Below are positions 16,984-24,404 of a stretch of DNA of 24,404 nucleotides, piece after piece. How positions within the stretch are numbered: the stretch's first letter is position 1; every line of letters starts with the position of its first letter. Source of the stretch: a virus; IMG/VR virus record IMGVR_UViG_3300049479_000025, positions 1 through 24,404 of that record. One strand, 5' to 3'. The translations under genes were made by a program, and so were the position numbers. The notes under the pieces are model-generated. The model was not told the DNA's origin and searched no databases. It was given only the letters and a program-made list of their open reading frames with translations.

Positions 16984-17137
16984 TTTTTAACTCCGCTAAA
17001 TATACTTCTGAAATGTAAAGTTTGTGCTTATTAACTAAACCTCGCAGCATTTTCTCTGCGGCTGGCTTCTGCACAAACACTGCCCCGTCTAGCGGTGAGC
17101 CATCATGTAAGTATAGGATGGCCCAGCGCTTAAACAA
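16943..17137 (-). CDS. Small protein between methyltransferase and TerS
   Basis: A 64-aa protein starting at TTG, 8 nt inside the end of the methyltransferase gene and 41 nt over the start of TerS. AGAAGG lies about 7 nt before the TTG. The first 50 residues (M-F-K-R-W-A-I-L-Y-L-H-D-G-S-P-L, A-V-F-V-Q-K, L-Y-I-S-E-V-Y-L-A-E-L-K) form a plausible small fold and vaguely recall short phage proteins; I cannot name a family. The tail after residue 50 is Ser/Pro rich and overlaps TerS. A spurious frame is the alternative. Confidence 0.5.
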   Translation of the reverse strand: MFKRWAILYLHDGSPLDGAVFVQKPAAEKMLRGLVNKHKLYISEVYLAELKNGRRSGASSPPTN

Positions 17138-18362
17138 GTTCGGCCTTCTGGCCTGTAAAATCTTCCCAGCGCTTTACGATTACATCGCAATACTTTGGGT
17201 CTAGTTCCATCGTAAAGTTAGTTCTTCCTAACTTCTCGCAAGCAATCATTGTAGAGCCGGAACCGCCAAACAGATCAAGAACAGACCCGCCATTTCTACT
17301 TGAGTATCCGATGGCTTTTTCTACAAGTTCAATCGGCTTCATAGTCGGATGTAAGTCATTTTTTCTTGTTCTTGCTACATCCCATACATCATCTTCTGCG
17401 TACTCTTGCCCGTAAAAGTGATTTTCAAAGTACCCATACACAATGGGTTCATACTTTCTTCTAAAGTGACCGCCACCCATCGGAGACTGATTTTTGTTCC
17501 AGATGATTATGCTTTTCCAGCCTATACCAGTATTTACTAATGGAGAAAGCAATTCATCTAACGTGGAACTTGAAAAACAAATGTAATAACCTCCAACACA
17601 ATAAATTTTTATTACAGACAAAATTGAAGTTATAAAGTCATTAAATTCAGACTTGCTTTTTTTGTCATTATGAATTTCATCGTGTTTTGCATTTGCACCA
17701 ATATGCGGAACCAACCGACCTTCAATTGTTGTGTTTGACATTGTTCCACCAAACCCAATGTTATAAGGCGGGTCTGTAAAGACCATATCTGCCTTCTGCC
17801 CATCCATCAGCTTCTCCACCGCATCTATGCTTGTAGAGTCACCGCACATCAGCCTGTGCCGCCCTAGTTGGTAAATGTCCCCAGGCTTGGTCTTAGGCTC
17901 CTCTGGAACCTCTGGCACTTCATCTTCGTCTGTAAGCCCTTCCGTGGGCTTCACAGGGTCTAGCAGGTTCTTTAGCTCGTCTACATCAAAACCTAAAATG
18001 TCGAGCGCAAAGTTATCCGCTAAGAGTTCGTTTAACTCTATCGTGAGTAACTCGTTATCCCAGCCAGCATTCAGAGCCAGTCGGTTGTCTGCGATGATGT
18101 ATGCCTTTCGCTGCGTCTCGTTCAGATGCCCCAGTCTTATACATGGGACTTCCATAAGCCCGATCTTCCTTGCAGCCATAACCCGTCCGTGGCCAGCAAT
18201 GATGACATCATCCTCGCCAATGAGAACAGGGTTGTTGAATCCAAACTCTTTAATTGACGCTGCGATCTGAGCTACTTGCTCGTCTGAGTGCGTCCTCGAG
18301 TTCTTGGCATACGGAATCAGCTTTTCTATGCCGATCTTTTCAATCTGATGTGCGCCTTGCAT
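17130..18362 (-). CDS. ParB-like domain fused to DNA methyltransferase
   Basis: A 410-aa protein; ATG with AGAGGA upstream. Residues 10-125 form a ParB/sulfiredoxin-like domain: I-P-Y-A-K-N-S-R-T-H-S (16-26), I-I-A-G-H-G-R-V-M-A-A (54-64) and A-D-N-R-L-A-L (91-97). A Pro/Glu linker (about 135-160) leads to an N4/N6-type methyltransferase: D-P-P-Y (197-200, catalytic), H-P-T-M-K-P (338-343) and the AdoMet motif F-G-G-S-G-S-T (365-371). The order D-P-P-Y before the AdoMet motif is that of the beta class. Such fusions are common in phages and probably guard phage DNA from host nucleases. The region between the motifs, where target recognition is expected, is much richer in A+T. Confidence 0.88.
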   Translation of the reverse strand: MQGAHQIEKIGIEKLIPYAKNSRTHSDEQVAQIAASIKEFGFNNPVLIGEDDVIIAGHGRVMAARKIGLMEVPCIRLGHLNETQRKAYIIADNRLALNAGWDNELLTIELNELLADNFALDILGFDVDELKNLLDPVKPTEGLTDEDEVPEVPEEPKTKPGDIYQLGRHRLMCGDSTSIDAVEKLMDGQKADMVFTDPPYNIGFGGTMSNTTIEGRLVPHIGANAKHDEIHNDKKSKSEFNDFITSILSVIKIYCVGGYYICFSSSTLDELLSPLVNTGIGWKSIIIWNKNQSPMGGGHFRRKYEPIVYGYFENHFYGQEYAEDDVWDVARTRKNDLHPTMKPIELVEKAIGYSSRNGGSVLDLFGGSGSTMIACEKLGRTNFTMELDPKYCDVIVKRWEDFTGQKAELV

Positions 18363-23962: not shown

Positions 23963-24298
23963 ATGAGTCCAACACAACGCAGTCTTGCGTACATAAGAGA
24001 TCAGGGTATGAAGCCTTGGGTCTGTGAGTACTGGAACCACTTCGCCAGGAAGCGTGTAGACCTCTACGGGTGTATCGACATCCTGGCAATTGGTAACGGA
24101 GAGACATGGGCAGTACAGACCACCAGCACAGGCGTAGCCAGTAGGGTGAAGAAGATTCAGGAGTCTGAGTACTTCCCACTCATGCTGGAGTCAGGCTGGA
24201 GGGTCTTCGTACATGGCTGGGCCAAAAATACTAAGGGCGAGATGAAACATCGAGTTGTGGAGTTGACGAAGCCTGAGGAGAAGAATACAGTTGAGTAG
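23963..24298 (+). CDS. PD-(D/E)XK-like protein (nuclease fold)
   Basis: A 111-aa protein, the only complete rightward gene. It starts S-P-T-Q-R-S-L-A-Y-I-R-D-Q-G and has C-E-Y-W-N-H (21-26), R-V-D-L-Y-G-C-I-D-I-L-A-I (31-43), A-V-Q-T-T-S-T-G (50-57) and R-V-K-K-I, then S-G-W-R-V-F-V-H-G-W. From memory this is a common phage family with the D-(L/I)-x-A then V-Q-x-T-S pattern of PD-(D/E)XK nucleases, in which the usual E-x-K is Q-x-T. Activity is therefore uncertain; K63 or K64 might replace the lysine. The ribosome site is weak. It may act in recombination or degradation of host DNA. Confidence 0.6.
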   Translation: MSPTQRSLAYIRDQGMKPWVCEYWNHFARKRVDLYGCIDILAIGNGETWAVQTTSTGVASRVKKIQESEYFPLMLESGWRVFVHGWAKNTKGEMKHRVVELTKPEEKNTVE

Positions 24299-24299
24299 T

Positions 24300-24383
24300 T
24301 GCGGCTAGGGTAGCTCCCGAAAGACGGTTCACCCCTTTCCCGTTTGCCGCAGCACCTTCCGAAGGGGGAAGCTGGAAAGGGGT
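24300..24383 (+). promoter_or_regulatory. Structured leader with sequestered ribosome site
   Basis: Within 84 nt: TGCGGC/GCCGCA (24300-24305 with 24346-24351); GGG/CCC (24308-24310 with 24316-24318); AGACGG/CCGTTT (24322-24327 with 24340-24345, one wobble); CTTCC/GGAAG (24356-24360 with 24367-24371). The 12-nt loop of the third stem holds most of ACCCCTTTCC (24331-24340), perfectly complementary to GGAAAGGGGT (24374-24383), the ribosome site of the next gene. This fits a cis-acting translation control element. No known riboswitch class was matched. Confidence 0.55.
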
Positions 24384-24387
24384 TGTT

Positions 24388-24404
24388 ATGCACTTTTATA
24401 AGTT
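24388..24404 (+). CDS. Start of a rightward gene cut by the window edge
   Basis: ATG followed by H-F-Y-K to the edge; AAGGGG lies 5 nt upstream. The ribosome site is the 3' half of the 10-bp inverted repeat of the leader. Product unknown. Confidence 0.55.

Follow-up and report, generated by a model that had tools for sequence, protein, structure and literature searches.

An int-alpA family leader in a phage genome fragment whose P3 loop co-varies with two downstream segments, one bearing the Shine-Dalgarno site

A structured leader ahead of a DUF1376 gene

The window analysed here is the complete 24,404-nucleotide stretch of virus record IMGVR_UViG_3300049479_000025, a phage fragment in which SU10-type capsid and portal genes are present. 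At its right-hand end, as the initial annotation of this DNA had noted, a gap of 89 nt (24299–24387) separates the stop codon of a 111-aa open reading frame (ORF), ending at 24298, from the next ATG at 24388 (Table 1). A Pfam search of this upstream ORF returned no match. Its stop codon (24296–24298) overlaps the first base of stem P1 of the leader RNA, and ribosomes terminating there could disturb the junction and the folding of the leader. The ATG had been taken as a gene start, and a related viral locus (L002) bears this out: an identical leader there opens a 250-aa frame, whose protein is DUF1376 in a further relative, L004 (E = 1.7e-24). Elsewhere in the window, the minus strand at 17130–18362 encodes an N6/N4 DNA methylase with an N-terminal ParB-like domain, the ParB match falling slightly under the cut-off.

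Table 1. Coordinates of the leader elements and flanking genes in the window
Feature	Position	Strand	Remarks
Upstream ORF, 111 aa	23963..24298	+	PD-(D/E)XK-like according to the initial annotation; 75 viral relatives
int-alpA RNA (RF02996) match, full model 1-71	24298..24366	+	45.2 bits; gathering cut-off 35.8
P1, 5' strand	24298..24305	+	8 bp with 24346-24353, one G-U
J12, UA	24306..24307	+	same in 60/61 bacterial leaders; UG in the remaining one
P2 hairpin, GGG-UAGCU-CCC	24308..24318	+	24308-24310/24316-24318; palindrome AGCU inside loop
J23, GAAAG	24319..24323	+	family form GAAAA
P3 hairpin, 4 bp	24324..24343	+	24324-24327/24340-24343, loop 24328-24339
L, P3-loop segment, ACCCCTTTCC	24331..24340	+	partner P or S
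P1, 3' strand	24346..24353	+	pairs with 24298-24305
P, GAAGGGGG	24361..24368	+	8 bp with L 24332-24339, one G-U; predicted pseudoknot freeing S
P4, weak hairpin, SD in loop	24370..24384	+	about 24370-24373/24381-24384
S, GGAAAGGGGT	24374..24383	+	SD-bearing; exact complement of L
Start of DUF1376 gene (MHFYK...)	24388..24404	+	truncated by window end; putative regulated gene

A covariance search places the leader in the Rfam family RF02996, int-alpA, well above the gathering cut-off and over the full length of the model; the earlier statement that it matched no known motif was therefore mistaken. As an object, the leader is a further member of a known RNA family, and the three-way junction that had been drawn from the letters is the one that characterises int-alpA, with a P1 of about 8 bp, P2 and P3 each located in the window. 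Its junction strands read UA / GAAAG / UU, the last two slightly off the commonest UA / GAAAA / CU. Junction and stems are common to model and leader, whereas the Rfam model lacks S and P4, pairs its loop with neither P nor S, and carries the type 'Gene; sRNA'. The name-giving genes likewise lie outside the model, and the copy in the window precedes a DUF1376 gene rather than int or alpA. We know of no function for int-alpA, which was reportedly first described as a computational discovery by Weinberg et al. in 2017. In the part of the literature that we covered, the two-way pairing, the hairpin around the Shine-Dalgarno (SD) site and the palindromic loop described below appear to be undescribed so far.

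The central claim of the initial annotation was that the third loop is an exact 10-nt complement of the SD region, and this proved accurate: L and S match throughout, the GGGG of the SD site ends 5 nt before the ATG, and the long helix competes with P3 by one base, its tenth pair using C24340, which also closes P3. A second partner of the loop, P, had been missed, and the competition is thus two-way. In relative L004, the pairing of L with P (L:P) is Watson-Crick throughout. In the window, P4 is a weak hairpin of about 4 bp, two of them G-U; in most relatives it is strong or clear.

The lowest-energy fold of the leader is the long helix of L with S (L:S), at -34.2 kcal/mol. Since the energy of the whole-leader fold is ordinary relative to shuffled sequences (z = -0.29), significance rests on comparative evidence. 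A helix of at least 10 bp arises anywhere in 0.8% of 500 dinucleotide shuffles of the leader, and a 10-bp helix joining the places of L and S in 0 of 2000; together with the co-variation reported below, these shuffles led us to reject chance complementarity of the two segments. L:S is the stabler of the two pairings in the window (-17.7 versus -14.0 kcal/mol for L:P), so this particular leader may be closed by default. Further targets of L within the window were considered and rejected, as its one-mismatch sites are at chance level (four matches, a number reached by 6 of 100 shuffles).

Distribution and anatomy of int-alpA leaders

Searching with the 111-aa upstream protein yielded 75 viral loci, several with the same leader, and a search with a 21-nt core of the leader yielded more than 119 viral stretches. 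The exact core also occurs in 55 stretches of bacterial genome contigs (Alpha-, Beta- and Gammaproteobacteria, Planctomycetota and Acidobacteriota), and a similar core in 92 named phage records, some of them by chance. Matches to RF02996 above its cut-off are present in 49 of the 349 Pseudomonadota genomes sampled, in 5 of 61 from the Bradyrhizobium family and in 4 of 79 from Planctomycetota; the 14 control genomes have none. A BLASTn search of named phages with the region gave no match, and our first two Rfam-like patterns gave 0 and 3 matches because the subgroup to which the window belongs has a shorter P2. One planctomycete genome (G484; contigs C35, C100, C301, C405 and C460) holds eight int-alpA copies; tandem copies occur in other genomes (G046:C33, G138:C2), some with the same L and some degenerate-looking.

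The genes downstream are mixed. Among 83 viral downstream proteins there are 8 DUF1376, 7 HNH_3, 3 Prim-Pol, 2 KilA-N and 2 NUMOD4 proteins, with many lacking a family; among 54 bacterial ones there are 4 integrases, and most of the 54 are unknown proteins. Integrases make up 5 of the 137 scanned proteins, and the carriers overall comprise homing endonucleases, DUF1376 proteins, primases, integrases and many unknowns. In named phages, the leader often precedes a free-standing gene among structural genes (for example NUMOD4, HNH and Seg-like homing endonucleases). One phage with a copy is Enterobacter phage Tyrion (KX231829).

Several loci that share the homologous upstream gene carry something else behind it. 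Four have a different leader (L003 4325–4480, L010 4322–4480, L014 and L017), in which CAGTCTYCATTGG is complementary to CCAATGGAGATTG directly ahead of the start codon; this too could hide the SD site, by a second kind of structure. An Rfam search of L003 and L010 gave no match. In seven others (L008, L009, L015, L016, L034, L035 and L067), a long branched hairpin with a T-run at its end replaces int-alpA and is followed by a stretch resembling an HNH-type ORF. Loci L019–L031 have a conserved stretch of unassigned kind, TCCAAGTGGGG...GGTTAGGAACAGTG...CTGATACCCC, ahead of varied genes. Viral contig L032 carries a Betaproteobacteria-1 RNA (RF02932, 92.8 bits) on the minus strand at 212–332.

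Comparison of the leaders gives the following order of elements: P1 (8 bp), UA, P2, GAAAA, P3 with L, CU, the second strand of P1, P, P4, usually with S in its loop, and the start codon, which lies about 27–43 nt past P1 in most leaders, start codons having been assigned by rule. The viral set was collected by the exact core, which makes its conservation partly a matter of construction, and statements about the junction therefore rest on the 61 leaders found by the Rfam model, of which 60 have UA, 42 GAAAA and 46 CU. In this set the P2 stem occurs in 22 sequence variants, although the parser demands P2 pairing, so these forms are no independent proof of P2. P4 is stronger than in shuffles (z = 8.9 and 9.2). 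A match of 5/6 or better to a -10 promoter element is present in 35 of 79 viral leaders, compared with 10 of 79 shuffled ones, which hints at a promoter of their own for part of the leaders; the match in the window is weak.

The P3 loop has co-evolved with P and S

We measured the fit of each L to its own P and S against its fit to those of other leaders, for about 140 leaders in all; a first version of this swap test, which left P and S unseparated, was too blunt and was discarded. The viral set comprises 49 distinct loops. Its L:P score is 15.3 versus 9.0 when swapped (z = 18.6) and its L:S score 13.2 versus 9.1 (z = 13.5), while the control pairing of L with the ORF start gives z = 0.6. The 61 bacterial leaders found by the Rfam model behave alike (L:P z = 14.2, L:S z = 12.6, control -0.5), as does a third set of 29 leaders (6.3 and 5.4); all of these z values are inflated by shared descent. 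At least five contiguous Watson-Crick pairs are formed by L:P in 88% and 80% of leaders, against 9% and 18% after swapping, and by L:S in 61% and 70%, against 8% and 15%. As the swaps preserve the generic fit between an anti-SD and an SD sequence, the excess for L:S is specific. The parser found no clear S or P in a few leaders of the 61-leader set.

The same pattern is visible at single loci. Close relatives that share the upstream gene (L005, L011 and L018) have L, P and S altered together: the L/S pair is ACCCCTTTCC/GGAAAGGGGT in the window, TCCCTGA/TCAGGGA in L005 and CTCTCCTTTT/AAAAGGAGAG in L011, with P matched each time. The initial annotation had named homologues that vary in the two halves without keeping complementarity as the observation that would speak against it, and here the complementarity is kept. 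Taken across leaders, these comparisons show co-evolution of L with both P and S downstream. Of the regulatory reading first proposed, the idea of a loop that can hide the SD site, by a pseudoknot or by a long helix, gains strong support from this co-variation, and the denial of a known motif is the part that falls; a riboswitch, a protein-binding leader and an autoregulated mRNA may all still describe it.

The two pairings are also near balance, with mean energies for L:P and L:S of -8.6 and -6.9 kcal/mol in one set and -7.4 and -7.5 kcal/mol in the other, the balance that a switch would call for. L:P outweighs L:S in 38 of 49 viral leaders and in 32 of the 61 bacterial ones.

A candidate translational switch and its alternatives

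With a probability of roughly 0.7, judged from sequence comparison, we read the leader, an int-alpA family member, as a translational switch acting in cis, in which L:P leaves the SD site free and L:S hides it. The junction formed by P1, P2 and P3 presents L, which can pair with P or with S, never both. Because P is transcribed before S, L:P would form first and leave the SD site open; where L:P is lost or disfavoured, L:S would take over and translation of the downstream gene would stop. What sets the balance may be a partner that reads the P2 loop or the conserved UA, GAAAA and CU of the junction: a ligand, a protein or another molecule of the leader. Both the direction of the switch, with L:P as the on state, and the existence of such a trigger are what we infer. 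Conservation of the junction argues for a sensed partner; the mixed genes downstream in the viral and bacterial sets suggest no particular ligand. The leader resembles translational riboswitches with pseudoknots between a loop and the 3' tail: here too a conserved core, the near-invariant junction, is joined to an expression platform of mutually exclusive pairings, L:P versus L:S, that expose or hide the SD site. The leaders differ from riboswitches in preceding many unrelated genes rather than those of one pathway.

The main alternative to a sensed partner is a plain attenuator. Control by folding time is exemplified by the leader of the MS2 maturation gene, and a timer of this kind would, with no sensor at all, let L:P form first for a burst of translation, after which L:S would shut expression off or keep it low. 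The order L, P, S and the balanced energies would suit such a timer, as would the homing endonucleases among the carriers, whose translation phage T4 holds low by structures that hide the ribosome-binding site (RBS; PMC2988022). RNA hairpins hide the RBS of the homing endonucleases I-TevI and SegB of T4 and MobE of Aeh1 (PMC2988022). These resemble the leader in that the SD site of a mobile phage gene is hidden by RNA structure (PMC2988022), but they are simple hairpins with neither a conserved junction nor an alternative partner. A timer has no need of a near-invariant junction (UA, GAAAA, CU) kept across several phyla, and we consider it unlikely.

Slightly less likely is a trans-acting antisense RNA like phage P1 C4 and the CI RNA of satellite phage P4, in which a processed junction would bind, through its P3 loop, the SD region of other mRNA copies and confer loop-specific immunity. 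C4 RNAs (RF01695; P1 c4, P4 CI RNA) have the same topology as the leader: an outer stem and two hairpins, the second of which carries in its loop a complement of the target. For C4 this target is a ribosome-binding region; in the leaders, the loop is complementary to the ribosome-binding region of a gene on the same transcript (10 bp exact in the window; z = 13.5 and 12.6 among relatives). Loops that diverge among close relatives while S keeps matching would also fit immunity, and the Rfam listing of int-alpA as an sRNA would imply action in trans. Against this, the leader lies at the 5' end of the matched gene in nearly all copies, has P beside L in cis, so that L has two cis partners within about 40 nt, and precedes many genes, such as those for homing endonucleases, with no role in immunity; processing of the leader is unsupported. 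Membership in C4 was rejected, as the C4 model finds no match in the window leader at E<=1 and scores P4 CI RNA, used as a control, at 74.9 bits. Lysogeny immunity was likewise set aside as this phage's principal use of the leader, since a search of seven related phage records, three of them 34–36 kb long, found no integrase; these records may be fragments. Position and co-variation favour a cis leader over a free sRNA. In phage P4 itself (L199, 8615–8692, minus strand), an isrK RNA (RF01394, 60.8 bits) overlaps a c4-a1b1 match (44.1 bits, cut-off 46.7) upstream of the C4-type CI RNA.

The P2 loop offers a further lead. Nineteen of 26 distinct P2 loop forms contain a self-complementary 4-nt palindrome, compared with 6.5 expected and a maximum of 15 in 5000 shuffles, and five contain a 6-nt palindrome (0.5 expected); P3 and P4 loops have no such excess. 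Examples are the window (24311–24315, UAGCU), L337, L338 and L340; an exception is the commonest bacterial P2 loop, GACG (24 of 61), which is not palindromic. Kissing homodimers typically have loops of this sort, which suggests, as a lead only, that leaders may form such dimers. A still more speculative proposal, which we think improbable, is that int-alpA acts as a dosage or self-recognition switch: kissing of P2 loops would make L exchange P for S, either in the same molecule or between the two molecules of the dimer, translation would go off once enough mRNA copies are present, and L would serve as an identity tag.

Very improbable is a reading in which L:P serves as a fixed structural element, a pseudoknot, and L:S is a by-product of the likeness of both P and S to an SD site. 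L:P does outweigh L:S in 38 of 49 viral leaders, but L:S stays specific when the swaps preserve generic complementarity to the SD site (z = 13.5 and 12.6).

Returning to the cis-acting translational switch, one loop that co-varies with two downstream sites gives the computer-found int-alpA family a concrete and testable mechanism of translational control in cis. It predicts this control for mobile genes, among them those for homing endonucleases, integrases and primases, in phages from several phyla, and speaks for revisiting the listing of int-alpA as an sRNA. Should a ligand or dimerisation be found, int-alpA would represent a new class of switch, shared by phages across unrelated genes.
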